A stretch of DNA of 41,457 nt, from IMG/VR virus record IMGVR_UViG_3300004770_000042, positions 1 through 41,457 of that record. One strand, 5' to 3'. The translations under genes were made by a program, and so were the position numbers. Each line of letters opens with the position of its first letter. The first letter of the stretch is position 1. The DNA is from a virus. Positions 2,583-41,457 of the stretch are shown one piece after another. The notes below the pieces were generated by a model, which ran no database searches, was not told the origin of the DNA, and was given only the letters and a program-made list of their open reading frames with translations.

Positions 2583-3044
2583 GTGACAATAGTTATGTTT
2601 ATCGACGGCGTTTTGCGCAGTCACACGGGAACCCCGATATACCAAGGTCTTGCCCTTTATCGCCTATTTAATGAAGGCAATAAGGTAATGCTACTTGGTG
2701 AACACAAGGGCAAAGACGACATCTGGCTTCGTCAACACAAAATTAATAAGATTGATGACCTAATTGACCACACTATTCCAGGTATGACCGATTTCCCAGA
2801 ATGGCGTCAGGTAGAGTATCTTCGCGGTAATGGTGCTGTGGACTTAGTAGTTACAAGTGACCCTAAGGTTGCAAAAAAGTTATTGGAGGTTGGAATTACC
2901 ACTATGGTATTTATGCAACCTGCCTATGTTAAAGAAGAGTTTCGTCCTGATAGCAGGATTGGAACTAAGACATGGAAAGACATCGAGGATGAGATCACCC
3001 GTCAACTTGAAGCCATTATTGAGGATCCAAGACTAAGCCGATGA
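2583..3044 (+). CDS. HAD-like fold protein, probably catalytically degenerate
   Basis: 153 residues from GTG 2583, with GGAG eight bases upstream. The N-terminus MFIDGVLRS resembles HAD motif I (DxDGV), followed by a helix, a middle VVTSDPKVAKKLLEVG (motif II-like T/S) and a late RPD stretch. The first Asp of DxDGV, the usual nucleophile, is Phe, so phosphatase activity is doubtful. It overlaps the next gene by four bases (ATGA). Assignment to the fold is tentative. Confidence 0.5.
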   Translation: MTIVMFIDGVLRSHTGTPIYQGLALYRLFNEGNKVMLLGEHKGKDDIWLRQHKINKIDDLIDHTIPGMTDFPEWRQVEYLRGNGAVDLVVTSDPKVAKKLLEVGITTMVFMQPAYVKEEFRPDSRIGTKTWKDIEDEITRQLEAIIEDPRLSR

Positions 3045-4522
3045 CTCGCCTAATTTACTTGGGCGCAGAGGTACCTTCTAACCGCACCCTACTCGAAACC
3101 ACATCTGCTAACTACGTTGGCGTGAGCTATTGGCGTTTAACCAAGCGGGGACTGCCTAAGAAGAGCAGTTACCTCCTAGAGAACTACTTTAACCCTGATT
3201 TCCTAATCCATGTCCATCCCGGGATCCCCAAGGACACCACACTAGATCGTGTAGAACTGGAGACCTTTGCGGCCGAGTACGAGGGTTTTATAGCCGACAA
3301 TATCGATCGACTTGAGACCTTTAATGACATCAACGCCGAATGGATAGACCCAGCTTTCGTTAAGGAGCAGCGTAATACTGTTTGGTCAGAGGTACCACCT
3401 GCCAAGTTTCAGCCTGTCTGGAGCCCTACAGAGGGTCTAAAAGCTTTGACTGACATGGCGGGTACCTTCTTAGATATCGCCATTCCTGGGGGTGCTTTAG
3501 AGGAGAATCCACAGCTTTCTGTCGTCATGCGTACACACATTAGGACTGGAACTAGGTTCCATATCCTAGGTAGCGCGAGACCGGATAGCCTACGACAACT
3601 AGCCGTTGAGACCATCAGCACACAGGCTTGGCTATCCCCTATGTTGCATGGTGAGACTATTGTATGGGATGGCACTAAACTAAACCGTTATCCCAAGAGG
3701 ATGAAAGATCAAGCTCGATCACGATACCGTCACATCTATCAGAAGGCCGGTATCGATGCTGATAAGATTTTTGAAGATGACCCACAAGAAGTATGTCGTC
3801 TAGCCGTATGGTCATATACACAGTTTGAAACGAGGATGAACGCCATGAACCCCAACTCAGATGACGAACTGTTATATGATAACAGCGGTGAAACAGATGT
3901 AGATATAAGTGCGGAAAACACCCCTTCCGTATCTGATAATAAGGGTATTCAACCACGGAAACTTGAAGCCCGAAATCCTGCCGAAATGGGGCATTTACCG
4001 GTCTTTGGAGTGCAGTATAAAGAGGTTGTAGAGCAGGATTCAGAGGGTCGGGACATCATTAAAGAAGTCCCTGTTTTACAGTCCCAGTCGGTCAGTCTAA
4101 GAGTTTGCGATACGTGCTTTGTTGCTGACAAGTGCCCTGCTTTTAAGCCTCAGACAGCTTGCGCATTTAACCTCCCAGTAGAGGTAAAGACCACCGATCA
4201 ACTCAAGGCACTGCTTAATGCAATCATCGAAATGCAGGGTCAACGCATTGCTTTTATGCGTTTTGCTGAAGAAATGAGCGGTGGATACGCAGATCCTAAC
4301 CTTTCCCAAGAGATCGATCGCCTCTATAAAATCGTTTCTGAGGTCAATAAATTGGGAGAATCTAAAGACTATATTAGGATTACTGCTGAGCGTTCTAGCT
4401 CTGCTGGAGTGCTGTCTTCCATCTTCGGAGACCGTGCTCAAGCCCTCAGAGAAATGCCTAACGGGGGCATAAATGAGGAGCAGACAACCAAGATTATTAG
4501 GCAATCTTTAGAAGATAAATAA
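3041..4522 (+). CDS. TGT/DpdA-like TIM-barrel domain fused to a Cys4 helical domain
   Basis: 493 residues. Residues about 70-215 follow the pattern of phage tRNA-guanine-transglycosylase-like (DpdA) proteins: a YEGFI helix with a DIN stretch, FQPVWSPTEGLK (about 123-134), a Gly-rich strand FLDIAIPGG, then FHILGSARPDSL (173-184), comparable to the H-x-LG-x-(S/T)-P of that family, and a Trp-containing TISTQAWL. The Asp of the usual V-D-S-T-x-W motif appears to be Ser. After an acidic linker (about 270-305) comes C356-x2-C359-x5-C365-x8-C374, a likely zinc site, and a helical end. DpdA enzymes insert 7-deazaguanines into DNA; activity here is uncertain. No preQ0 pathway genes are seen in the window. 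Confidence 0.45.
   Translation: MTRLIYLGAEVPSNRTLLETTSANYVGVSYWRLTKRGLPKKSSYLLENYFNPDFLIHVHPGIPKDTTLDRVELETFAAEYEGFIADNIDRLETFNDINAEWIDPAFVKEQRNTVWSEVPPAKFQPVWSPTEGLKALTDMAGTFLDIAIPGGALEENPQLSVVMRTHIRTGTRFHILGSARPDSLRQLAVETISTQAWLSPMLHGETIVWDGTKLNRYPKRMKDQARSRYRHIYQKAGIDADKIFEDDPQEVCRLAVWSYTQFETRMNAMNPNSDDELLYDNSGETDVDISAENTPSVSDNKGIQPRKLEARNPAEMGHLPVFGVQYKEVVEQDSEGRDIIKEVPVLQSQSVSLRVCDTCFVADKCPAFKPQTACAFNLPVEVKTTDQLKALLNAIIEMQGQRIAFMRFAEEMSGGYADPNLSQEIDRLYKIVSEVNKLGESKDYIRITAERSSSAGVLSSIFGDRAQALREMPNGGINEEQTTKIIRQSLEDK
3869..3885. repeat. 17-bp palindrome, copy 1 (inside a gene)
   Basis: CTGTTATATGATAACAG is an inverted repeat (7-bp arms around three bases). It lies in the codons of the inter-domain linker of the TGT-like protein. 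The identical sequence recurs 659 bp downstream in the gap before the ribonucleotide reductase gene. Two identical palindromes this close suggest a paired operator. Confidence 0.6.
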
Positions 4523-4526
4523 CTTT

Positions 4527-4545
4527 CCTGTTATATGATAACAGG
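4527..4545. promoter_or_regulatory. 19-bp palindrome, copy 2, upstream of the ribonucleotide reductase gene
   Basis: This 19-bp inverted repeat (8-bp arms CCTGTTAT and ATAACAGG around three bases) contains the 17-mer seen at 3869. It sits five bases after the stop of the upstream gene and 56 bases before the reductase ATG. It could be an operator. Without a following T-run it is not a typical terminator. The remaining gap to 4600 holds GAGAGA (4589-4594) as a Shine-Dalgarno. Confidence 0.55.
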
Positions 4546-4600
4546 GCTTTGTAAGGCATGAAACAACACACCCCCCACCACGTAGAAAAGAGAGATATTA

Positions 4601-6634
4601 ATGGCATTGTCGTTTAAGCTAACCGAGGATTTCGTGGCGGGATACAGAGGTAAAAAGGTGCCTTGGGGATACCAAGATGCCGCAGGTAATTCTGTCGGTG
4701 AGATCACCTTCCTCCGTACTTACTCCCGTATCAAGGAGGATGGAACCAAGGAGACATGGACAGATGTCTGTGAGCGAGTAATCAACGGTATGTATTCCCT
4801 TCAGAAGGATCACGCTAAGCTGAACCGCTTGCCTTGGTCGGACTCCAAGGCCGCAGCTTCCGCTAAAGAGGCGTTCGATCGTCTATGGAACTTGAAGTGG
4901 ACTCCACCAGGACGAGGACTTTGGGTCATGGGAACACCTATTGTTAATGACCAGCGCAACTCTGCAGCTTTGCAGAACTGTGCCTTTGTATCTACGGATT
5001 CTATGACCAAGCTTAACCCAGCTAAGCCGTTTGCCTTCCTAATGGAAGCTTCTATGCTGGGAGTCGGAGTCGGGTTTGACGACAAGGGCGCAGATAAAGA
5101 CTTTACTATTTATGCCCCCGAACAAGGAGATACATATGTCATCCCAGATACCCGCGAAGGTTGGGTCGAGTCATTTGCCGCCCTCCTCAATAGCTACCTT
5201 AAGCCAGATACGAAGAGCCCAGTCTTTGATTACACCCAGATCCGCCCAGCGGGAACTACTATCAAAACCTTCGGAGGAACTGCAGCTGGACACGAGCCAC
5301 TAGAAAAGCTCCATAACCACATTCGTCGTATATTTGACGGTCGTGGGGGGGAGAAGCTTACCCGTGTAGACCTAGCCGACATTGGCAATCTGATCGGAGT
5401 TTGTGTTGTAAGCGGAAACGTCCGCCGTTCAGCTGAGTTACTCATGGGTCGTATCGATGACGATACTTTCTTGAACTTGAAGAACCCTGAGAAGTTTCCT
5501 GAGCGTAACTCCTATGACCCTGCCAACCCAGGCTGGGCATGGATGTCTAACAACTCTGTCGAGGTATCTGTTGGTCAAGATCTCTCACGCATTGTAGATG
5601 GTATCTCACGTAACGGAGAACCCGGCGTAATTTGGATGGATGTTACACGCAAGTACGGTCGTCTTAAGGATGGAATAAACAATAAAGACTGGAGAGCTAT
5701 GGGCTACAACCCATGCGCAGAGCAGTCACTAGAGTCCTTCGAGTGCTGTACTTTGGTGGAGACTTACCTTAATCGTCATGAGGATCTAGAGGACTTCAAG
5801 CGCACACTAAAGTTTGCTTATCTCTATGCCAAGACTGTAACTCTTCTTCCTACCCATTGGGAGGAGACCAACGCGATCATGCAACGCAATCGCCGTATTG
5901 GAACTTCTGTCTCTGGTGTAGCTAACTTCTCAGATAACAAGGGCTTGCCTACTCTACGTAAGTGGCTCGATGCTGGGTACACCGTTGTTAAGGACTACGA
6001 CAAGGGCTACTCAGAATGGCTAGGTATCCGTGAATCTATCAAGATGACAACTGTTAAGCCTTCCGGCACAGTCTCTATTCTTGCTGGTGAGTCTCCCGGG
6101 GTTCACTGGTCAGTAGGCGGTAAGTACTTCCTACGCGCGATCCGTTTCCGTAATGAAGACCCTATGCTCCCTCTCTTTAAGATGGCACAATACACAGTTG
6201 AACCAGCTAGCGAGGATCCAAGCGGAACTTCTGTTGTGTTCTTCCCTGTGAAGTCTGATGCTAAGCGTTCAGAGAAGGAAGTCTCTATCTATGAGAAGAT
6301 CCACCTTGCCGCTACAGCTCAGTACGAATGGTCAGATAACTCTGTATCAGTAACAGTCTCTTTCGATCCTGAGACTGAGAAGGATGTTATCAAGAGCGTA
6401 CTTCATATGCACGAAGGTCAACTCAAGACTGTCTCTTTCCTTCCATCAGGTAATACTATCTATCCACAGATGCCTTACACACAGATCACAGAGGAAGATT
6501 ACGAGAGTTATCGCATGAAGCTCTTCCCTATCGATCTCGTAGGTGTCTACGCGGGTATGGCAGCTGATGCTATCGGAGAGGCTTACTGCAGCACAGATGC
6601 CTGTGAAGTGAAGTTGATTAAAGACAACCAGTAA
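4601..6634 (+). CDS. nrdJ: class II (adenosylcobalamin-dependent) ribonucleotide reductase, monomeric type
   Basis: 677 residues, near the length of monomeric ribonucleoside-triphosphate reductases. It makes dNTPs for phage DNA synthesis. Visible signatures: C127 in NCAFVST, the N-P-C372-x-E374 active-site motif with the second redox Cys at C383 (11 residues later, as in the Lactobacillus enzyme), GNVRRSAELL, TVKPSGTVSILAGESPGVHW, and a C-terminal swinging pair C663-x4-C668. ATG 4601 follows GAGAGATATTA. A strong terminator follows. A B12-dependent enzyme implies that the host makes or imports cobalamin. Confidence 0.93.
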   Translation: MALSFKLTEDFVAGYRGKKVPWGYQDAAGNSVGEITFLRTYSRIKEDGTKETWTDVCERVINGMYSLQKDHAKLNRLPWSDSKAAASAKEAFDRLWNLKWTPPGRGLWVMGTPIVNDQRNSAALQNCAFVSTDSMTKLNPAKPFAFLMEASMLGVGVGFDDKGADKDFTIYAPEQGDTYVIPDTREGWVESFAALLNSYLKPDTKSPVFDYTQIRPAGTTIKTFGGTAAGHEPLEKLHNHIRRIFDGRGGEKLTRVDLADIGNLIGVCVVSGNVRRSAELLMGRIDDDTFLNLKNPEKFPERNSYDPANPGWAWMSNNSVEVSVGQDLSRIVDGISRNGEPGVIWMDVTRKYGRLKDGINNKDWRAMGYNPCAEQSLESFECCTLVETYLNRHEDLEDFKRTLKFAYLYAKTVTLLPTHWEETNAIMQRNRRIGTSVSGVANFSDNKGLPTLRKWLDAGYTVVKDYDKGYSEWLGIRESIKMTTVKPSGTVSILAGESPGVHWSVGGKYFLRAIRFRNEDPMLPLFKMAQYTVEPASEDPSGTSVVFFPVKSDAKRSEKEVSIYEKIHLAATAQYEWSDNSVSVTVSFDPETEKDVIKSVLHMHEGQLKTVSFLPSGNTIYPQMPYTQITEEDYESYRMKLFPIDLVGVYAGMAADAIGEAYCSTDACEVKLIKDNQ

Positions 6635-7278: not shown

Positions 7279-7556
7279 TCTGCCACCTTATACATGACAT
7301 CACCCATGAACTCTACTGGCTTGTCATTCTCTCCAAGCTTAGTGGCAACCATCTTGATCGATTTGCGACCGGTGATCTCCAGCAAAATCTTTTTAACGTG
7401 TCGCTTAGCTGCCGATGGGTTTGACCAGGCTGTATAGTCCTGCACACCATTGCCAAGATTAGGCTCATCAATACGAGTCAAGGTTAACCATGACCCACCT
7501 TGCGCGGTGTTCTTTGTGATCCGCGCATGAAATCTCTTTTCGATCTTTTTAGCCAT
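7275..7556 (-). CDS. small basic protein, unknown function
   Basis: 93 residues from ATG 7556, with AAGGAG eight bases upstream; the longer in-frame start would run deep into the upstream gene. The N-terminus is basic and beta-like (KRFHARITKN), followed by a helix SAAKRHVKKILLEITG. A small alpha/beta protein; nucleic-acid binding is possible from the charge. Confidence 0.6.
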   Translation of the reverse strand: MAKKIEKRFHARITKNTAQGGSWLTLTRIDEPNLGNGVQDYTAWSNPSAAKRHVKKILLEITGRKSIKMVATKLGENDKPVEFMGDVMYKVAE

Positions 7557-8040
7557 TTCTATCTCCTTTATAAGTAAGCGAACGTTCCCACTTAGTGCCA
7601 TCGCCACGGTCTTTCCATGACAACTCCATAATCTCAGGGAAGTCTAGCAGACTCTCTATCTTTTGCTTAATAGCCGTCACGCTCGCTTCATCTTCTAGTC
7701 TTACCTTTAAATACACACAGTTTTGCCACTTAGGATCTTTGCGTTTAGGTCTCTCTCTCCTTATCTCTATTTCAGGTGGCTTGACTTGACCAGTTTCTTC
7801 ATAGTACCTAAGCATCTCTATTCCAAGCTTGAGCATCTTTTTAGTACGCTCCGCGCTTATGCCGTGCACCTTTTGTATTTCTTGAATACTTTTAGGCATC
7901 CCATCTCTAAGCCCATAGCGCATGGAAATTAAACCTTGAAGTCTCACTCCTAACCCAGCCTTTTCCATAGTTAAGAACGGATCATCTTCATAGTCGAACG
8001 TGTAGCTCCAGTCGCGCAGGTTTGTTTGTGTTGAGATCAC
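7549..8040 (-). CDS. orphan sigma-region-4-like DNA-binding protein
   Basis: 163 residues from GTG 8040 (GTGA overlap with the upstream stop). Residues about 34-80 (RLQGLISMRYGLRDGMPKS, then IQEIQKVHGISAERTKKML) match the pattern of sigma-70 region 4: a LxxRYGL helix, an acidic turn, the I-x-E-I-x-x-x-x-G-I-S helix-turn-helix and a recognition helix. No regions 1-3 are present. The C-terminal half is an unknown alpha/beta domain with many charged residues. It could recognise -35 elements or bind RNA polymerase. The HTH is visible; the regulatory role is inference. Confidence 0.55.
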   Translation of the reverse strand: MISTQTNLRDWSYTFDYEDDPFLTMEKAGLGVRLQGLISMRYGLRDGMPKSIQEIQKVHGISAERTKKMLKLGIEMLRYYEETGQVKPPEIEIRRERPKRKDPKWQNCVYLKVRLEDEASVTAIKQKIESLLDFPEIMELSWKDRGDGTKWERSLTYKGDRNG

Positions 8041-10104: not shown

Positions 10105-10190
10105 AATCACCTTCTAGATAATCAATTCGGCGGAGACTGTCTCCACTAAGAGGAACCTATACCCTAGAGAGGAGAAATAGAGGGATTTTT

Positions 10191-10212
10191 GATAACGATT
10201 AGATAACGATTT
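10191..10212. repeat. tandem 11-bp repeat GATAACGATT(A/T)
   Basis: Two copies, GATAACGATTA and GATAACGATTT, head to tail. The same pair, with small changes, occurs near 11939, 13318, 14074, 14715, 15997 and 16694, in the six main cassettes 77-87 bases upstream of the first start codon of the leftward operon. Probable activator or repressor site. Confidence 0.7.
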
Positions 10213-10284
10213 ATACAACCCCTCAATACCCCCATAGAACCCAGTTTTGGCGGGTACTGTCTAATTAGGAATAGATATAAGGAT

Positions 10285-10316
10285 AGATACTCTCTCTCTC
10301 CTCTCTCTCTCTCTCT
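10285..10316. repeat. CT-dinucleotide tract beside parS
   Basis: About 30 bases of almost pure CT dinucleotides end three bases before the parS site; read leftward this is a GA tract. Cassettes 2-6 have a shorter AGAGAG element at a comparable place, so this is an expanded version. Such tracts slip easily and can form unusual structures. Confidence 0.5.
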
Positions 10317-10318
10317 TG

Positions 10319-10334
10319 TGTTTCACGTGAAACA
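10319..10334. promoter_or_regulatory. canonical ParB-binding site (parS)
   Basis: TGTTTCACGTGAAACA is a perfect 16-bp palindrome identical to the chromosomal parS consensus used by ParB/Spo0J-type proteins in most bacteria, including Actinobacteria. ParB nucleates here, loads as a CTP clamp and supports ParA-driven segregation. No parA or parB gene is in this window, so it would be read by a ParB from the host or from elsewhere on the phage. It lies in the largest non-coding gap of the leftward region. Confidence 0.85.
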
Positions 10335-10427
10335 TCTCTCTCAGCTAGCTCACAGATAGCTCTCAGCCTATTATCAGATACCTCCCCAGCCAACTACCCC
10401 CAACTTCTGGTCATACATCCACTTATC

Positions 10428-10443
10428 GATTTGTCGACATTTG
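10428..10443. repeat. 16-bp motif GATTTGTCGACATTTG, copy 1
   Basis: Identical to 32845-32860, just upstream of the terminase gene, and closely similar to 35406-35420, just upstream of the portal gene. The core TGTCGACA is a perfect palindrome. Probably a binding site shared between the leftward control region and the late genes. Confidence 0.6.
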
Positions 10444-10563
10444 ACAGTAGCCGAATTGCCCTAGCAGATCGGTGGCTCCGGTGTCAATAGTCCCAGGCTG
10501 TGATTCCGGTCACATCTCTCTTGCATATATATTCCCTAATGGGGAGGGTGGGTCAACACAAAC

Positions 10564-10612
10564 AAAATGCCCGGTCAATCGCCGCCACTACACGGTGATC
10601 GCCGGGCATTTT
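10564..10612 (-). terminator. intrinsic terminator of the 11863-10633 operon
   Basis: AAAATGCCCGG (10564-10574) pairs with CCGGGCATTTT (10602-10612) with further pairing inside the loop. Read leftward it ends CCGGGCATTTTGTTTGTG, so its U-tail runs straight into the -35 region of cassette 1. Confidence 0.8.
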
Positions 10613-10632
10613 GCCGGGGAAACAGCTGCTAA

Positions 10633-10869
10633 TTACTCTTCGTCCTCCTCATCCGGACCGTAAGTGAGCTTAGCCCAATGAGCTACCACGCTATTGATCA
10701 GCCATAGGCATTGCCCATCTGTGTAATCCTCTCCAGGCATACCCGGGATATCTCCTATGAGATCTACTACCTCTCCATCCATGCCGTTATAGGAGAGCTC
10801 TCTGGCTAGGAACTCCAATATCCGCCCCGTTACTTCTTCGGTGCTCTTCGTACCACCTTCAATAGTCAT
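10633..10869 (-). CDS. small acidic protein, last gene of its operon
   Basis: 78 residues from ATG 10869 (ATGA overlap with the upstream stop; the longer frame is a shadow of that gene). Helical N-terminus (TEEVTGRILEFLARELSY), a Gly-Asp-rich middle and a DEEDEE tail. Function unknown. Confidence 0.6.
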   Translation of the reverse strand: MTIEGGTKSTEEVTGRILEFLARELSYNGMDGEVVDLIGDIPGMPGEDYTDGQCLWLINSVVAHWAKLTYGPDEEDEE

Positions 10870-11048
10870 CGTGCCCACACTCCTTCTAAGGTCATATTGA
10901 CGTCTAATACCTTGAACTCTCCAAGATTTAGCCCGTTTTCCGCCAACCACTGCGTAGCGAGCCGTTCAGCCTGCTCCTCATCATCAGCACTAATCACTGT
11001 CGCTACACTGAAATAGTCCATGATGAAGGTAACTGTGTAGTCGTTCAT
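10866..11048 (-). CDS. small ferredoxin-like-fold candidate
   Basis: 60 residues with strand-helix-strand pattern (YTVTFIMDYFSVATVISAD, then DDEEQAERLATQWLAENG, then FKVLDVNM), as in small phage proteins of split beta-alpha-beta type. Overlaps neighbours by four bases on both sides. Function unknown. Confidence 0.6.
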   Translation of the reverse strand: MNDYTVTFIMDYFSVATVISADDEEQAERLATQWLAENGLNLGEFKVLDVNMTLEGVWAR

Positions 11049-11266
11049 TCCCGATCCTCTCCTTTTAGCACTAATGTGTCATGCTCAGACTCAGCTTTGA
11101 GGGATACGATGATCGTGCCGTCCTCATTCTCCCAGCGGAAGAACTGGTAGTCGCACTCTTCGCACCTCCCGTCCATGTCGTTAATCATCTCTATGGTGTT
11201 GTCGTCTATGCTTTCCCAGCCACAGACGATACAAGTCACCTTGATACAGCCGTGATAAGTAGTCAT
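11045..11266 (-). CDS. 73-residue zinc-ribbon protein
   Basis: C-x2-C at CIVCGWESID and C-x2-C at CEECDYQF form a four-Cys zinc ribbon; an additional Cys lies at residue 7. The beta-rich C-terminus follows. Its ATG overlaps the TAA of the upstream peptide. Possible nucleic-acid or protein-binding module. Confidence 0.6.
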   Translation of the reverse strand: MTTYHGCIKVTCIVCGWESIDDNTIEMINDMDGRCEECDYQFFRWENEDGTIIVSLKAESEHDTLVLKGEDRE

Positions 11267-11412
11267 TACAGCCTCCCAAACTTCGCCAAGATGTGTTGTA
11301 GGGCTTCGGTGGCACCTTCACCCCATAGGTGGTCAGCAGTATCCGCGGACTCCTCCACGAATTGCTTAATCTCCTCTAGGTGACTCTCTATGTAATCGAG
11401 TACCTCATTCAT
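11266..11412 (-). CDS. 48-residue helical peptide
   Basis: ATG 11412 forms an ATGA overlap with the upstream stop, and its TAA shares a base with the next ATG. One long acidic amphipathic helix (VLDYIESHLEEIKQFVEE) and a second at the end. It fills an otherwise unexplained gap exactly. Confidence 0.6.
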   Translation of the reverse strand: MNEVLDYIESHLEEIKQFVEESADTADHLWGEGATEALQHILAKFGRL

Positions 11413-11645
11413 GGCATTATCCCTCCGAATAGGAACCCTCCGCCATTGCCTTCCTCATCGCGGGAGACTTCTATCTCTCCGATGTGACCATCAGCAAAAC
11501 GGATAGTGAAGGATGGGAAAGGGTCATTACCCCATTCAGGGTCGTCCTCTTTCATCCCATTGAACTTCAAGATGGTGGCACCCACTAGCGAGCCGTAGTA
11601 CTTCTCGTAGAAGGCTTTTCTCTTTTCTAGGTAGTTAGTAGTCAT
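11409..11645 (-). CDS. small unknown protein
   Basis: 78 residues, coupled to the upstream gene by TAATG. Basic N-terminal helix (LEKRKAFYEKYYGSLVG) then a beta domain (PSFTIRFADGHIGEIEVSRD) and a Gly-rich end. Looks like a small SH3-type barrel, but no family is recognised. Confidence 0.6.
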   Translation of the reverse strand: MTTNYLEKRKAFYEKYYGSLVGATILKFNGMKEDDPEWGNDPFPSFTIRFADGHIGEIEVSRDEEGNGGGFLFGGIMP

Positions 11646-11863
11646 TATTCCTCACACTCACAGTCGGATAAATAGTTATTGCAGTCATTACACTCAGTTG
11701 TTGCTAGGAAGTCAGAGAACCCAACGCGGTAGGCGATAGGGTCTAACTCATAAAGGGCGCGGGATGTGTCATACTCATACCCAGCGACCATGACGGTGCC
11801 CCATGCTTCATCGAGACTCTCTTTGTAAAACTCCTCTAATTCGTATTCCTCATATTTAGCCAT
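11645..11863 (-). CDS. first gene of the 11863-10633 operon; acidic Cys-tail protein
   Basis: 72 residues. ATG 11863 is seven bases after GATAGGA, the Shine-Dalgarno of every cassette; ATG 11869 is possible but too close. Strongly acidic, with C-x2-C and C-x-C near the end (CNDCNNYLSDCECEE). Similar tails occur in other small phage proteins; function unknown. Confidence 0.6.
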   Translation of the reverse strand: MAKYEEYELEEFYKESLDEAWGTVMVAGYEYDTSRALYELDPIAYRVGFSDFLATTECNDCNNYLSDCECEE

Positions 11864-12068
11864 GTTCATTCCTATCAGTAGTAGTGGACTTGCAAGACAA
11901 AATCTACCCCATCGAACCCCTAAAACCCTCTCTTTTTTCATAACGATTTGATAACGATCCAGCTCCCAGGAAACTCCCGGCCGGTCCTCAGCTCATTCCC
12001 GGCTAACTCTCTCTTACTTACTCCCTTAGATAGTTAGAGACTAGGGAGGGTGGGTCTCAACACAAACA
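11864..12068 (-). promoter_or_regulatory. regulatory cassette 2
   Basis: Leftward order: TGTTTGTGTTGAGA with -35 TTGAGA (12055-12060), spacer CCCACCCTCCC, -10 TAACTA (12031-12036, 18-base spacer); AGAGAG; CCGGGA-type repeats; tandem CATAACGATTTGATAACGAT (11939-11958); -10 TAGATT (11901-11906) 32 bases further; Shine-Dalgarno GATAGGA. Drives the 11863-10633 operon. Same architecture as cassettes 3-6. Confidence 0.65.
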
Positions 12069-12076
12069 TTCGGGCA

Positions 12077-12155
12077 CAACAAAGGCCGGCAACCCCCTGG
12101 CTGCCAGCCTTGTTGTATAGAACCCCCGCGAGCCTGACTCATTCAGGGGTTCTAT
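12077..12155 (-). terminator. two consecutive hairpins ending the 13238-12179 operon
   Basis: Leftward, a perfect 10-bp stem ATAGAACCCC/GGGGTTCTAT (12117-12126 with 12146-12155) is followed by a longer imperfect stem CAACAAGGCTGGCAG/GCCGGCCTTTGTTG. Together they probably stop leftward transcription before cassette 2. Confidence 0.7.
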
Positions 12156-12178
12156 GTTTTACCTGATAGGAGGTAAAT

Positions 12179-12286
12179 CTAGCTCTCGCAATCGTGACCG
12201 GTGTACCACTCTTCAGCTTGAACCTCATCTAGAAGGTTGAACACACGATCGCACTCAATACAGCGAGCTACAGTTGATAGTTTCAT
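12179..12286 (-). CDS. 35-residue Cys-containing microprotein
   Basis: ATG 12286 overlaps the upstream stop (ATGA) with GAGGTG as Shine-Dalgarno. Contains CIEC near the start and HDC near the end, a possible minimal zinc knuckle (C-x2-C...H-x-C). Last gene before the terminator pair. Confidence 0.55.
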   Translation of the reverse strand: MKLSTVARCIECDRVFNLLDEVQAEEWYTGHDCES

Positions 12287-12822
12287 GCACTCACCTCCTC
12301 TTTAGGGCAATCGTCAAAGCGGTACTCTTCATCCTCACAGCCATAACAGTAATCGAGGTACTTCATGCTATCAGCGTGAGTTTCGGGGATGTCCCACGCC
12401 TCCTCCTCAATGACCTCTCCATTCTTGTAGGTGACCACGCCTCCCCAGCCTTGTTCCTCTAGGTACTCATGGACAATGCCAGCGGATGGATAGAGTTCAG
12501 CGAGCGCGGAAATCACAGTAGGTGGAGACCATGGCGTATTGAAGGTATAGAGAACATCTTCATCTGAGGAAGACTCTACATTCAGGTCACTAGCGTCCCA
12601 CTTACAACCCCAATGGTTGAGGTTCCAGCCATACCAGCCAGATGGGTCATTCATGGTTTTACCATTAGTACCCACGACATCGTTATACGCCTCTAAATCG
12701 GTAGGCGCGATAATCTGCCAGAAAAAGCCTTGTTCTAAGTCTTTCTCTAAGCGAGCGCGAATCTCTTTAATGACCTCTGACTTAGCGGTAATCGTCACGC
12801 TATTGCTAACCCAATTTGGCAT
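12283..12822 (-). CDS. DUF1281/Api92-like protein with ferredoxin-like domain
   Basis: 179 residues. Begins MPNWVSNSVTIT and has WNLNHWGCKWDASD followed by TPWSPP, the hallmark of the DUF1281 (YubB/Api92-like) family of plasmids and phages. The C-terminus carries extra Cys residues (CYGCEDEE, DDCPKEE) that are not typical and could bind zinc. The role of the family is not known. Coupled to the upstream gene by TAATG. Confidence 0.75.
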   Translation of the reverse strand: MPNWVSNSVTITAKSEVIKEIRARLEKDLEQGFFWQIIAPTDLEAYNDVVGTNGKTMNDPSGWYGWNLNHWGCKWDASDLNVESSSDEDVLYTFNTPWSPPTVISALAELYPSAGIVHEYLEEQGWGGVVTYKNGEVIEEEAWDIPETHADSMKYLDYCYGCEDEEYRFDDCPKEEVSA

Positions 12823-13238
12823 TAGAGAATCACCTCCTCTCTCACAATAGGGGTTTCGGCAACCTCACCGAATGTGCGCTCATAGAGGTCACGCCCAGCC
12901 TGCCACTCTGACCAATAGCCATCTGAACCGACACTCAATGCCTCACCAAAATAGTACTTAGCGCGGATAAGGACGGCGGTAACTACCTCATCATAAGGCT
13001 TGAAAGCAGTCTTACAGAAATTCATGTCCTGCTTATTGCTGAGGTGAAAAGTTTCATGGCTTCTCTCTCCTACGCCGTTAAAACGAATGCGCTCACCCAA
13101 TTCAGGTAAGCCAGTACCATCCCAGCCAGCGATACCAGCCTCTGAGTTCTCAATAATTGCGGTAACATCTCCTACTAAGGCATTCCAATTCTCTTCATGA
13201 ATAGCCTCCTTTACAGTAAAGTAATGTGTATAGCCCAT
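12822..13238 (-). CDS. conserved phage protein of the MGYTHYF type
   Basis: 138 residues. The N-terminus MGYTHYF is a recurrent signature of small hypothetical proteins in many phages as I recall. Later blocks: IAGWDGTGLPELGERIRFNG and ETFHLSNKQDMNFCKTAFKP. GATAGGAG precedes the ATG. First gene of its operon under cassette 3. Function unknown. Confidence 0.7.
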   Translation of the reverse strand: MGYTHYFTVKEAIHEENWNALVGDVTAIIENSEAGIAGWDGTGLPELGERIRFNGVGERSHETFHLSNKQDMNFCKTAFKPYDEVVTAVLIRAKYYFGEALSVGSDGYWSEWQAGRDLYERTFGEVAETPIVREEVIL

Positions 13239-13441
13239 TTCAGTCTCCTATCAAAGAACTAGCGATTTGCTAGTGACTAAAACCTATCACCTAATCCCCC
13301 AAAATCCCCCAAAATTAGATAACGATTTAATAACGCTTGCCTGAGAATTAGCCTGGAATTAGCCGGGGACCGGCAGCTCTCTCTCAACAACTCCCTTACG
13401 TAGTAAGTACAGAACAGGGAGGGTGGGTTCCAACACAAACA
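13239..13441 (-). promoter_or_regulatory. regulatory cassette 3
   Basis: TGTTTGTGTTGGAA with -35 TTGGAA (13428-13433), C-rich spacer, -10 TACTTA (13404-13409, 18-base spacer) overlapping a small hairpin; AGAGAG; CCGGGA-type repeats; tandem GATAACGATTTAATAACG (13318-13335); -10 TAGGTT (13281-13286) after 31 bases; 5' hairpin ACTAGC/GCTAGT; Shine-Dalgarno GATAGGAG before ATG 13238. Confidence 0.65.
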
Positions 13442-13502
13442 ATCTGAGCTACAAAATGCCGAAAGGGGCAGGGGATTTCTCCCCCACCCCCTGAAGCTTG
13501 AC
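13442..13502 (-). terminator. terminator region of the 13993-13505 unit
   Basis: Leftward, a G-rich imperfect hairpin (GGGGG...CCCC) is followed by TGCC-CCTTTC-GGCA and then TTTTG. It sits right after the stop of the DUF4192-like gene and ends where cassette 3 begins. Stem strength is moderate. Confidence 0.5.
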
Positions 13503-13504
13503 TC

Positions 13505-13993
13505 TTAGGCGTTCACCGTCCCAAAGATCTCCTCGCACACCTTCGGATGTAATGAGGTACGCATCTCTGTGAAGGCGGAAGGCTTCCAACCAGCAAGATA
13601 GACACGAGTGAGCAACTTACCTAGCGGATACTTCTCACTTGCCACTCCGAGTCGGATAAGTGCCAACTTGGTATCTCCTGACTCAAAGGCAATCAAAGAC
13701 TGGAAGCAAGCAGGAGCATAGATACCAGCAGGTACCACACTCACTAAACGGTTAATCTGCTCAACATGGGTTTTATTATCTTTATCCATGATACCGAGTA
13801 CATAATCGCGGATAGAGAGTTTATCGAAAGAAGCAACCAACTTAGGGAGATCCACATCATTATTGGTATCAGCCAGCCAATTATCAACCGCGCGGGCACT
13901 TTCAACCATCCACTCGCTACCAGCGTCCCAATCACTATCTACGCGGACGGCGCGGTTTGCCATAACTTGCGCCTTAAATTGTGTCTTGTTCAT
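13505..13993 (-). CDS. DUF4192-like protein
   Basis: 162 residues from ATG 13993, seven bases after GATAGGAG. The C-terminal half follows the DUF4192 pattern: a Pro-Ala-Gly helix (VVPAGIYAPACFQSLIAF), short acidic Gly turn (ESGDTKLALIRLGVASEK), YPLGKLL, then a final helix ending GWKPS. DUF4192 proteins are small actinobacterial proteins of unknown function, also seen in actinophages. About half the usual family length, so the N-terminal part is reduced or divergent. Confidence 0.55.
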   Translation of the reverse strand: MNKTQFKAQVMANRAVRVDSDWDAGSEWMVESARAVDNWLADTNNDVDLPKLVASFDKLSIRDYVLGIMDKDNKTHVEQINRLVSVVPAGIYAPACFQSLIAFESGDTKLALIRLGVASEKYPLGKLLTRVYLAGWKPSAFTEMRTSLHPKVCEEIFGTVNA

Positions 13994-14204
13994 CTTTACT
14001 CCTATCAGTACATCCACCGACTTGGTGAATAGTTGAACCCTACCCCATGCCCCACGATTTGCCCCTAATTTTTAATAACGATTTGATAACAATTAATTCC
14101 CAGCCGGTCCCCAGCTAACTCCCGGCTAGCTCACAACTCTCTCTTTAATAATCCCTATTACGAAGTAATAGTTGGATCAGGGTGGGTGGGAGCCAACACA
14201 AACA
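13994..14204 (-). promoter_or_regulatory. regulatory cassette 4
   Basis: TGTTTGTGTTGGCT with -35 TTGGCT (14191-14196), C-rich spacer of 17, -10 AACTAT (14168-14173) in the hairpin CTATTACTTCGTAATAG; AGAGAG; CCGGG-type repeats; tandem AATAACGATTTGATAACAATT (14074-14094, listed in halves under 20 bases elsewhere); -10 TAGGGT (14037-14042) after 31 bases; hairpin CACC/GGTG; GATAGGAG; ATG 13993. Confidence 0.65.
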
Positions 14205-14226
14205 AACCCCGCGCTTGGCGGGGTTC
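14205..14226 (-). terminator. intrinsic terminator of the 14635-14232 unit
   Basis: AACCCCGC and GCGGGGTT flank a five-base loop. Read leftward the stem is followed by TGTTTGTG, which is both the U-tail and the first part of cassette 4. A compact fusion of terminator and promoter. Confidence 0.8.
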
Positions 14227-14231
14227 GCTTA

Positions 14232-14525
14232 TTACTTATCCTCAATGACCTTTATCTCTGCGCCTTTGGCGCGGATAACTAGTACAGAGTCAGTAGGGAT
14301 AGAACGAAACGCCTTCTTATCCATGTCCCAGACTGGAATTAACTTCTTTTCGTCAGCGTCGTACTTAAGGACTCCGCCGACTAACTTTGACTTGTAATTC
14401 GTAGTCGCGCGCATGGTGCGCAACTCACCCGTAGTGCGCTTGATAAAGTCAACAGAAAAGAAACTGCCATTAAGCGAGCGCAAGAAAGTATGAATTTGAG
14501 CGCGTGTCAGTTCTACAGTTTCCAT
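14232..14525 (-). CDS. Sm-like SH3-barrel protein (WYL_2/DUF2693-type)
   Basis: 97 residues. Pattern FFSVDFIKRTTGELRTMRA followed by TTNYKS and VWDMDKKAFRSIPTDSVLVI matches the small viral SH3-barrel proteins in which a basic first strand pair binds nucleic acid. The ATG shares a base with the TAA of the upstream zinc peptide. Family assignment is from pattern; function unknown. Confidence 0.6.
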   Translation of the reverse strand: METVELTRAQIHTFLRSLNGSFFSVDFIKRTTGELRTMRATTNYKSKLVGGVLKYDADEKKLIPVWDMDKKAFRSIPTDSVLVIRAKGAEIKVIEDK

Positions 14526-14635
14526 TATTCGTCACATCCCTCACAGATAAATACCCACTCTGCTCCAACCTCAGAACGTACAAAGTGACCGCTATGCGTG
14601 GCGAACTTACCACCGCAACCGTTACAAGCTTCCAT
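14525..14635 (-). CDS. 36-residue zinc-ribbon microprotein
   Basis: C-x2-C (CNGC) near the N-terminus and C-x2-C (CEGC) near the C-terminus, 26 residues between, a complete minimal ribbon. GATAGGAG lies seven bases before ATG 14635. First gene of the unit under cassette 5. Confidence 0.65.
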   Translation of the reverse strand: MEACNGCGGKFATHSGHFVRSEVGAEWVFICEGCDE

Positions 14636-14827
14636 TATTAACTCCTATCAGAGAGTCGGCGTTTTGCCGATAGATGAATAGTAACCCCTACCCGTCGGAA
14701 TACACGTATTTTTTGATAACAGTTTTATAACGATTTATTTCCCGGCTAGTTCCCGGCTAGCTCTCTCTTATAATGCCCCTTTACGAAGTAAAGTTAGGCA
14801 CAGGGAGGGTGGGTGCCAACACAAACA
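14636..14827 (-). promoter_or_regulatory. regulatory cassette 5 (clearest copy)
   Basis: TGTTTGTGTTGGCA with -35 TTGGCA (14814-14819), 17-base spacer containing CCCACCCTCCC, -10 TAACTT (14791-14796) inside the hairpin CTTTACTTCGTAAAG; AGAGAG; CTAGCCGGGA twice; GATAACAGTTTTATAACG (14715-14732); -10 TACTAT (14678-14683) after 31 bases; hairpin CGGC/GCCG; GATAGGAG; ATG 14635. Confidence 0.7.
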
Positions 14828-14854
14828 TTTCCGGGAGTTTTCCGGGAGCAGGAC

Positions 14855-14880
14855 AAAACCCCCGCCGTGAAGCGGGGGCT
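14855..14880 (-). terminator. intrinsic terminator of the 15917-14902 unit
   Basis: CCCCCGC (14859-14865) pairs with GCGGGGG (14872-14878); leftward it is followed by TTTT. Between it and cassette 5 lies a direct repeat of CCGGGAG. Confidence 0.85.
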
Positions 14881-14901
14881 TGCTTTCCTGATAGGGGAAA
14901 C

Positions 14902-14985
14902 CTATTCGATCGGCTTATCTAAGTGGATCAAGATTCCGACTATGACCATGCCTACCCCTAGCCATAGAGCTACTAAACCGATCAT
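14902..14985 (-). CDS. 27-residue one-helix membrane peptide
   Basis: MIGLVALWLGVGMVIVGILI is a single transmembrane helix followed by a short polar tail (HLDKPIE). ATGA overlap with the ArdC-like gene upstream, with GAGGTG as Shine-Dalgarno. One of five such micro membrane proteins in the window. Confidence 0.55.
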   Translation of the reverse strand: MIGLVALWLGVGMVIVGILIHLDKPIE

Positions 14986-15917
14986 GCGCTCACCTCCTCT
15001 TTGATCTCGGCTTTGCCTAGTACTATCTCGACTGCCTTTGAAGCTTTGGTGATGGCGTCCACTAGAAACTTTGGATCATCTTGGAGAGGACGCAACCATC
15101 CTGCGAGATAGGTGGCGTGATTATCTAGATCTACATCTAGCCCAACTTGATGGAGGAGAGTGACCCCGCCGATCTCCGCTACGAGTTCCTCTTTAGAATA
15201 CCCTGAGTCTCCGTGAGATGTGAAGGGTTCTGCCGTCCAGCGATCCGCGCGTGACTTGTGCCCCGTGCTATGGATTACCTCATGAGCCATTGTCTCCGCG
15301 TATTGGGTTCCACTCTTGAATTGTGAGACGAGTGGGAGAGTGATGGAATCCATGAAGGGAGAATAGTGGGGAGACTCGTTCTCGCCCATCTCCTTATGGA
15401 AGATGGATGGCGCGTTCTGATACTTATTAAGGATAGTCTCTACGGCAACTGGAACCTCCACAGGCTCACGCTTGGTGAGGAATTGGGCGGGTATTGCTAC
15501 ATCCGCGCATTGATCTAGGTTCCAAACAGTAATGGATGAGAACCAAACATTATTGCGGGTCTTAATAGATGATGGAACTAGTTCGCCTTTGCCGACATTG
15601 ACCCAAACGCCATCGATTAGCTTCTGCTTGGTGATCGTAGGCTTAAGGATGTCAGTCGCCCTCTCGCCCTTGCGGACGAATCCGCCTAGATCCTGCGCTC
15701 CTTTATAGGTTACCCATAGTGGGCGCGTGTATCCGCGCTCCTCGCCAATAAGTGAAAGCCACATGGCGTTCACGCCCGTGTAAGCGTGTTTGGTAACTGC
15801 ATTGGTAGGCGAGAATCCCGCCCCGTTCCACGGCTTAAGCCATGAAGACTTACCCTCTTGTAATTGCTTAATGACACGCGCTGTAAGTTCTGCGTGTAAC
15901 TCATCCTTGCTCAACAT
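14982..15917 (-). CDS. ardC: ArdC-like antirestriction protein (zincin metallopeptidase)
   Basis: 311 residues from ATG 15917, with GATAGGGG upstream. N-terminal DUF1738-type single-strand DNA-binding domain (WLKPWNGAGFSPTNAVTKHA, then YTGVNAMWL, and YKGAQDLGGFVRKGE). C-terminal zincin peptidase with H212-E-V-I-H216-STGH and the third-ligand motif EELVAEIGG (about 243-251). ArdC proteins of plasmids protect incoming DNA from host restriction; here it would protect the phage genome early in infection. The final LAGWLRPLQDDPKFL also matches the family. Confidence 0.88.
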   Translation of the reverse strand: MLSKDELHAELTARVIKQLQEGKSSWLKPWNGAGFSPTNAVTKHAYTGVNAMWLSLIGEERGYTRPLWVTYKGAQDLGGFVRKGERATDILKPTITKQKLIDGVWVNVGKGELVPSSIKTRNNVWFSSITVWNLDQCADVAIPAQFLTKREPVEVPVAVETILNKYQNAPSIFHKEMGENESPHYSPFMDSITLPLVSQFKSGTQYAETMAHEVIHSTGHKSRADRWTAEPFTSHGDSGYSKEELVAEIGGVTLLHQVGLDVDLDNHATYLAGWLRPLQDDPKFLVDAITKASKAVEIVLGKAEIKEEVSA

Positions 15918-16108
15918 CTTGTCCCCTATCAAAAGACTCTAGCGATTTGCTAGTGCCCTAAACCTATACCACCAACCAGCAAACCCTGCCAAATTTGATA
16001 ACAATTTGATAACGATTATTTCCGGGACAATTCCCGGCTAGCTCACAGGCAGCTCCCGGCTCTCTCTTACTTACTCCCTTAAACGGGGCGGGTGGGCCAA
16101 CACAAACA
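15918..16108 (-). promoter_or_regulatory. regulatory cassette 6
   Basis: TGTTTGTGTTGGCC with -35 TTGGCC (16095-16100) and a C-rich spacer, but no good -10 at 17-18 bases; the small hairpin is shortened. Then AGAGAG, CCGGGA repeats, tandem GATAACAATTTGATAACG (15997-16014), -10 TAGGTT (15961-15966) after 30 bases, hairpin CTAGC/GCTAG, GATAGGGG and ATG 15917. The upstream promoter may be weak in this copy. Confidence 0.6.
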
Positions 16109-16571: not shown

Positions 16572-16713
16572 TATGTCCACCTATCAGAGTGTCGATTTAC
16601 CAGCCGTGTTGCTGATAGGAGAACAATGACAGCACCAGCCAGCAAGCACAAGAGGACAAATCGGACAAATAGTATTTATAACAAAACTGTTACATAACAG
16701 TTTGATAACGATT
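16572..16713 (-). promoter_or_regulatory. divergent control region (degenerate cassette 7)
   Basis: Contains ATAACAGTTTGATAACGATT (16694-16713), a diverged copy of the tandem repeat, but not the TTTGTGTTGG promoter. A TACTAT (16669-16674) could be the -10. CCTATCAG (16611-16618 on the other strand as CTGATAGG) pairs with CTGATAGG at the ribosome site (16579-16586), so the Shine-Dalgarno could be hidden in a stem. Confidence 0.5.
16684..16703. promoter_or_regulatory. 20-bp palindrome, probable operator
   Basis: AAACTGTTA and TAACAGTTT are perfect 9-bp inverted arms around two bases. The CTGTTA/TAACAG half-sites are the same as in the 17-bp palindromes at 3869 and 4528, and the right arm merges with the GATAACGATT repeat. 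It sits between the leftward and rightward small-gene operons. Confidence 0.6.
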
Positions 16714-16922
16714 AGCTGAGAAGTATCTGTACTCAGGCTGAGGCCCCCCCGGGGTTAAGCCGGGAGCTCACCGGGAAGGCCGCCAGTGCTTATCCACAGG
16801 TATCACTAGGTGGGGGCGGGCAGTAGCCGAAGACGGTGCGGGACGGGGCGGAAACAGGCGGGAACAGCTAAAAACTGGCGGGGGCTTGACAACCATTGAA
16901 GCGAGGATGGTAGGGTCGGGGC
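16714..16922 (+). promoter_or_regulatory. gap with promoter of the rightward small-gene operon
   Basis: About 200 GC-rich bases without a supported gene, including CCCCCCCGGGG runs. At its end TTGACA (16886-16891) and TAGGGT (16911-16916) lie 19 bases apart, and the -10 ends six bases before ATG 16923, suggesting a leaderless mRNA. Confidence 0.5.
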
Positions 16923-40833: not shown

Positions 40834-41457
40834 TTGAGCTACTGCAACTCTTGTAATAACTGGCCTTGTCAATGCGCAATCCAGGTAGTTACCCCTGCAC
40901 CAATAGTCATCAGCGTAACTCCTGAGACTAATACCAACATTCTTCCAGGGTTTACCGCACAAGGTATTCAGGGAACTCAAGGTAAGTTGGGCGCACAAGG
41001 CGTTGCTGGACAGTACGCTGCTCAAGGTATTCAAGGAGCAACGGGAGCACAAGGTTATGGGTATGCACAGTCACAAGGTATACAGGGGGCACAAGGGGTA
41101 CAGGGGCTGGTGGGAGGGCATGGTTCCCAAGGAACCACTGGACGATCAGGTGTGCAAGGCTATACAGGAGCTCAAGGAATCCAAGGCGTTCAAGGTACGC
41201 AAGGTCTATTAGGCTTGCAAGGTACGCAAGGAACGCAAGGAACTCAAGGAATCCAAGGCGTTCAAGGTACGCAAGGTCTATTAGGCTTGCAAGGTACGCA
41301 AGGAGTTCAGGGCGTACAGGGCAACACAGGTATTCAGGGCGCGGTAGGTACACAAGGCGCAACTGGAACGCAAGGCACACAGGGCGTTCAAGGTGTTCAG
41401 GGTACACAAGGCGTTCAAGGCTTGCTTGGCTTGCAGGGCGTTACTGGCGCTCAGGGC
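40834..41457 (+). CDS. collagen-like tail fibre protein (partial)
   Basis: TTG 40834; the frame is open to the window end (208 residues so far). N-terminus [20 protein letters not shown] has a five-Cys cluster, then a short Pro-rich part, then uninterrupted Gly-x-Gln/Gly-x-y triplets (GIQGTQG, GVQGLVG), typical of phage collagen-like fibres that trimerise. The Cys cluster could bind metal or anchor the fibre. The reverse-strand long frame here is a shadow of the triplets. Confidence 0.8.
41171..41304 (+). repeat. 72-bp period tandem repeat in the collagen-like gene
   Basis: Bases 41171-41232 and 41243-41304 are identical over 62 bases, offset by 72 (24 codons, eight collagen triplets). Exact identity at the DNA level shows a recent duplication; the length of the fibre can probably change by slippage. 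Confidence 0.8.

Follow-up and report, generated by a model that had tools for sequence, protein, structure and literature searches.

MtrAB is a conserved two-component system of actinobacteria. In Corynebacterium glutamicum, the MtrA site has the form (A/G)TAACAATttn(A/G)TAACAAT, in which 8-bp direct repeats are joined by a 3-bp linker, and MtrA activates promoters when its site lies upstream of the −35 and represses them when it lies close to the −10 (PMC3353115). Host response regulators are already known to act on phage genes: CtrA regulates the promoters of alphaproteobacterial phages (PMC9437464), and PhoB acts on cyanophage genes via pho boxes, with binding seen in gel shifts for some genes (PMC10976474). 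We found no report of MtrA controlling phage promoters in the literature searched, which excluded most subscription journals. Here, we describe a viral sequence of 41,457 bases (IMG/VR virus record IMGVR_UViG_3300004770_000042, positions 1–41,457; 'the window' hereafter denotes this whole stretch) in which a row of small-gene cassettes on the minus strand (10.1–16.8 kb), separated by similarly built intergenic regions, carries tandem repeats of 11-bp period upstream of predicted promoters. The sequence makes it reasonably probable that a host response regulator of the OmpR family, most likely MtrA with GlnR as the next candidate, activates these promoters.

Six of the cassettes display the same promoter geometry. 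Cassette 1 has its repeat at 10191–10212 (AAATCGTTATC TAATCGTTATC; 16/19 to the MtrA consensus on the plus strand) and a putative −10 box, TAGGTT, at 10154–10159; in cassette 2, the repeat (11939–11960, GGATCGTTATC AAATCGTTATG, 17/19) precedes TAGATT at 11901–11906, and in cassette 3 (13318–13339, CAAGCGTTATT AAATCGTTATC, 16/19), it precedes TAGGTT at 13281–13286, where a TG occupies the extended −10 position. The corresponding pairs are 14074–14095 (TAATTGTTATC AAATCGTTATT, 18/19) and TAGGGT at 14037–14042 in cassette 4, 14715–14736 (AAATCGTTATA AAACTGTTATC, 17/19) and TACTAT at 14678–14683 in cassette 5, and 15997–16018 (TAATCGTTATC AAATTGTTATC, 18/19) and TAGGTT at 15961–15966 in cassette 6, all on the minus strand. 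The repeat units are imperfect; allowing one mismatch, AAATCGTTATC occurs 10 times in the window (0.51 expected). Distances were measured on the minus strand from the last base of the second GTTATN (the repeat edge) to the first T of TAnnnT, and the recomputed values of 31, 32, 31, 31, 31 and 30 bp for cassettes 1 to 6 were identical to those of an earlier sequence-only reading of this DNA. TAnnnT is a loose, weak definition of a −10, and the boxes are sequence-predicted promoters; nonetheless, the clustering of TAnnnT within one 3-bp window at six of seven arrays was reproduced in 0/20,000 mononucleotide shuffles and 0/20,000 draws of random minus-strand positions.

That reading had also reported no good −35 at the six boxes, and this was borne out, as the best hexamer 15–19 bp upstream matches TTGACA at only 1–3 of 6 positions. 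Its assertion that the spacing rule extends to every cassette applies to these six arrays and fails at a seventh tandem repeat missing from its list (16693–16714, minus strand, 17/19 to the MtrA consensus), where the nearest TAnnnT lies at 18 bp. With TAnnnT, a poor −35 and a candidate activator site in helical phase, the six cassettes have the features predicted of an activator-dependent sigma-70/sigma-A-type promoter. The constant spacing could alternatively be a by-product of the recent duplication of one cassette rather than of selection, since the cassettes share a terminator tail, a C-rich element and GATAGGAG and are probably paralogous; however, the bases between repeat and −10 differ strongly across the six, and unrelated viral promoters have the same phased spacings, making this account extremely improbable.

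These viral promoters came from IMG/VR DNA, which was scanned twice for the repeat and yielded well over 100 stretches at the least; among the matches listed, 70 were non-redundant. The redundancy filter used the 60 bp downstream of the site and removed kinship among the 70 only in part, and the scans pre-selected strong sites, so that the spacing, and not the base preferences, serves as independent evidence. On the GTTATC side of the 70 listed sites, TTGAC was found at offsets of 8–10 (n=10), 13–15 (n=2), 18–20 (n=15), 24–26 (n=1), 29–31 (n=5) and 35–37 (n=0), while TAnnnT peaked at 31 and 42/43 bp. Per-position maxima reached 12 for TTGAC and 15 for TAnnnT, compared with 5 and 9 in rotated sequences, and the TTGAC count was 42 on the GTTATC side versus 10 on the other, where no peak was present. 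Spacing in relatives, a check proposed by the earlier reading, therefore takes discrete values, of about 31 or 42 bp to the −10 and of 9, 19–20 or 30 bp to the −35, which favours the activator proposal. Because these peaks occur at helical intervals and on the GTTATC side only, the repeat site is directional and helically phased to the predicted promoter, as would be predicted for an activator in contact with RNA polymerase.

The six promoters of the window belong to the short-spacing class (about 31 bp). A TTGAC −35 is retained in 4/14 short-spacing and 11/29 long-spacing viral relatives, so its absence is a property of the cassettes in the window and not of the site. The notion that the bound factor replaces the −35 contact is accordingly not general, and the site itself lies upstream of the would-be −35. 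Of the proposal that an activator sits on one face of the helix, the position at about −44 to −65 and the phasing stand; a phage-encoded factor, on the other hand, seems less likely than a host OmpR-family regulator, which we prefer on account of the match between the repeat and the published MtrA consensus. Another possibility is that the repeats act by repression or through DNA architecture (curvature, upstream A-tracts) instead of by activation. LexA boxes do occur in some related cassettes, and the seventh repeat may be a repressing site of the kind that MtrA uses near the −10 (PMC3353115). This is nevertheless very unlikely, given that six of the seven sites lie upstream of the would-be −35, that phasing to the −35/−10 is marked across relatives and that activator-type CRP boxes occupy the same position in other cassettes.

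Read on the plus strand, the repeat takes the form ATAACGAT-TTG-ATAACGAT. Scanning the window with the MtrA consensus, which was taken from the C. glutamicum literature independently of the window, returned seven sites at ≥16/19 (16–18), every one of them a cassette repeat; in 100 dinucleotide shuffles, the mean number of such sites was 0.09 and the maximum 1. Six of the seven, at about −44 to −65, lie upstream of the would-be −35, as MtrA activator sites do, and the seventh does not fit. Binding, activation rather than repression and the identity of the OmpR-family protein are what we infer from this match, from the fixed, helically phased and one-sided spacing and from the CRP/GlxR boxes that take the same slot in related phages. 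In the mechanism that we propose, a dimer of the host regulator would occupy each repeat pair as its 22-bp operator. From there, at about −44 to −65 and on one face of the helix, the dimer would recruit RNA polymerase to a TAnnnT −10 with no usable −35, presumably through contact with the alpha-CTD or sigma region 4, which would compensate for the missing −35. The leftward small-gene cassettes, encoding an antirestriction protein among others, would then depend on the host regulator.

The virus is very probably an actinophage with an actinobacterial host, as its major capsid protein shares 72.8% identity with that of Streptomyces phages LuckySocke/Alone3 (72.5% with BRock). The named phages with the nearest major capsid proteins have genomes of 112–116 kb, suggesting that the window is probably part of a larger genome. 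A BLASTn comparison of the window with the phages collection returned no match, nor did Rfam and ARAGORN searches. An OmpR-family regulator was not detected among the window proteins scanned, which represent part of the ORFs of a probably incomplete genome. That incompleteness leaves room for an activator or repressor encoded by the phage itself to use the repeats as operators; one candidate is the 163-aa product of 7549–8040, which has weak matches to MerR (E value 0.0017) and sigma-70 region 4 (E value 0.0047). We consider this unlikely, however: the protein has no homologue among the fetched loci, the repeat matches the consensus of a host regulator and recurs in many phages whose flanking sequences are otherwise unrelated (Gordonia and Mycobacterium phages included), and boxes for other host regulators fill the slot in relatives. 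In the phages collection, repeat matches were intergenic in 7/7 cases in actinophages and inside genes in 5/5 cases in other phages.

A different host regulator, GlnR, would imply that the phage reads nitrogen status. GlnR belongs to the OmpR family and recognises 11-bp-period boxes, GTnAC-n6-GNAAC (PMC10704036), and MtrA binds GlnR boxes in Streptomyces according to the title of one paper, which suggests that the two site types overlap. In small Actinomycetes genomes (30 genomes of 1.2–1.6 Mb), whose membership of the host lineage of the phage is a guess, an exact GTAAC-N6-GTAAC lies upstream of amtB in 17/30. RTAACRAT pairs also adjoin sugar ABC-transporter substrate-binding genes in small genomes of this kind (loci L181–L202), which suggests, on sequence grounds, a GlnR- or MtrA-type regulon; sugar-transporter genes are GlnR targets in other actinomycetes (PMC10704036). 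The repeats in the window share the 11-bp period of direct repeat that characterises GlnR boxes, whereas all 14 of their half-sites start with ATAAC and not with the G of GTnAC-n6-GNAAC or of the exact amtB boxes. In addition, the phage half-site has the RTAACRAT form and TTN linker of the MtrA consensus, while the spacer of the amtB boxes is not conserved, and GTAAC lies mostly on the coding strand in GlnR boxes (PMC10704036) but on the non-coding strand in the phage boxes. GlnR is thus rather unlikely. With A as the first base of all 14 half-sites, and with the site facing its promoter the other way round, the sequences favour MtrA over GlnR, although not decisively.

NlpC/P60 genes are classical MtrA targets. 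In the 30 small genomes, their upstream regions contained no MtrA-type site, and this is one of several observations that weigh against control by a host MtrA-like regulator. A looser motif was only about twofold enriched in the same genomes (30 matches versus 13 for a reversed control), and 11 of the 12 looser-motif matches inspected, which were chosen by us and of which four concern the same gene, adjoin a substrate-binding protein gene. GlnR is encoded in these genomes too, as examined in detail in one representative, G047, and the phage sites and the host amtB boxes have their promoters on opposite sides. One of the seven sites in the window (16693–16714) departs from the spacing rule, and neither the repeat nor the C-rich element is present in the nearest named relatives, which are BRock-related Streptomyces phages (four searched). 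G047, whose kinship to the phage host is itself a guess, does encode MtrA (a match to NF040689 above the cut-off), next to mtrB and ahcY, and the DNA-recognition residues of this MtrA are the same, its DTRLVNVHVQRLR stretch being identical to Mycobacterium tuberculosis MtrA.

A strict-motif scan of genome contigs produced only seven scattered matches, from which the host was not identified. RTAACRATTTNRTAACRAT was matched in 9/394 genomes of the class (reversed control, 0), including one centre genome picked for its match, and 7/9 of the matches lie upstream of the type I fatty acid synthase (FAS-I) gene. FasR was considered as the regulator on the strength of these seven matches and rejected, as the published FasR oligonucleotide (PMC7382501) has an unrelated sequence. 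The site conserved before the FAS-I gene in actinobacterial genomes (loci L074–L080) is RTAACRATTTGRTAACAAT, which does not resemble that oligonucleotide.

Further evidence on the activator site comes from related contigs, which were retrieved via the conserved terminator tail and C-rich element of the cassettes. In many of their cassettes, the activator slot is occupied by a CRP/GlxR box, TGTGA-N6-TCACA, the GlxR consensus (PMC7999487). TAnnnT follows 33–35 bp downstream of 20/55 unique CRP boxes, a set that includes some tandem boxes from other contexts (null maximum 10, P 0/5000). The core of cassette 6, from activator site to −10, aligns with the CRP-type promoters of contigs L048 and L046, and alignments of the other five cores with CRP-type cores were weaker or not significant. 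Homologues of the cassette 2 gene (11409–11645, minus strand, 78 aa) lie behind CRP boxes (L047, L051, L054 and L055) or an MtrA-type repeat (L045); those of the cassette 4 gene, a weak DUF4192 match (minus strand, listed as 13505–14017 with a probable ATG start at 13993), lie behind CRP (L047 and L048), LexA (L059) or LexA and CRP boxes (L053 and L054). The cassette 6 gene encodes an antirestriction protein (phrog_7245; 14982–15932, minus strand), homologues of which are found behind a combined LexA and MtrA-type module (L045) or a DnaA box (L040). Tentatively, and with slightly less than even confidence, we suggest that this actinophage group shares a single standard promoter frame whose activator slot is exchangeable (MtrA or GlnR, CRP/GlxR, DnaA, LexA), placing the same cassette genes under different host signals.

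Several other elements accompany these promoters. LexA-type boxes (TCGAACNNNNGTTCGA, 11–12/12) are present in related cassettes of L053, L054, L059, L045 and L049 and adjoin the CRP box in the first two. CGGCGTGTCG and CGACACGCCG recur in intergenic promoter regions of six related contigs (L042, L044, L045, L050, L057 and L058) and are absent from the window, and TGTCCGATTTGTCC-like repeats occur near several promoters, both in the window (16640–16680) and at loci such as L009, L092 and L096.

The upstream end of each cassette is marked by a terminator tail and C-rich element on the minus strand (TGTTTGTGTTG..CCCACCCTCCC at 10541–10564 for cassette 1, followed by 12044–12068, 13417–13441, 14178–14204, 14801–14827 and 16085–16108 for cassettes 2 to 6). 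After each terminator, in cassettes 1–6 as in loci L040–L060, TGTTTGTGTTG is followed by a hairpin around a near-invariant CCCACCC(T/A)CCC loop, the stem of which covaries: the arms are fully paired in 28/35 elements, whereas shuffled 3′ arms give a mean of 8.6 and a maximum of 17. In cassette 3, the −10 is immediately followed by what reads as a leader hairpin, ACTAGC-AAATC-GCTAGT (13258–13274, minus strand), and then GATAGGAG. Similar leader hairpins were noted by eye in cassettes 1, 4, 5, 6 and 7, with GATAGGAG or a variant after the hairpin in most cassettes. Elsewhere in the window, genes for a queuine tRNA-ribosyltransferase-like protein and ribonucleotide reductase lie at 3041–6634, and a 72-bp tandem repeat (1.9 copies, 98% matches) is located near the right end (41166–41304).

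Control of phage genes by host response regulators is familiar from CtrA and PhoB, and the present locus would bring the same idea to actinophages and to a whole row of cassettes, with the virus probably letting host signalling switch on these genes. From the helically phased geometry, it can be predicted which insertions would abolish activity and which would bring it back, and, if related phages do swap the activator box while keeping the gene, they provide a natural experiment on which host signal a virus chooses to obey. Compared with the MtrA-activated promoters of Corynebacterium and other actinobacteria, the cassettes share direct 8-bp RTAACRAT repeats with a 3-bp linker upstream of the −35 position; they differ in belonging to a phage genome, in forming six or seven consecutive units and in a fixed 30–32 bp to a −10 with no −35. 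CRP/GlxR-dependent actinobacterial promoters are reminiscent of the related viral contigs, where TGTGA-N6-TCACA fills the same slot and the −10 lies 33–35 bp away, whereas the cassettes of the window contain no such box. As in the CtrA-controlled phage promoters of Alphaproteobacteria (PMC9437464), the candidate regulator is a host OmpR-family response regulator with sites concentrated in promoter regions; the regulator and the phylum are different, and binding and regulation are experimental there and read from sequence here. The cyanophage genes under PhoB (PMC10976474) likewise have boxes for a host OmpR/PhoB-type response regulator upstream, while the actinophage system, which is known from its DNA, is distinguished by a row of cassettes of fixed geometry and by an activator box that appears to be exchanged among relatives.

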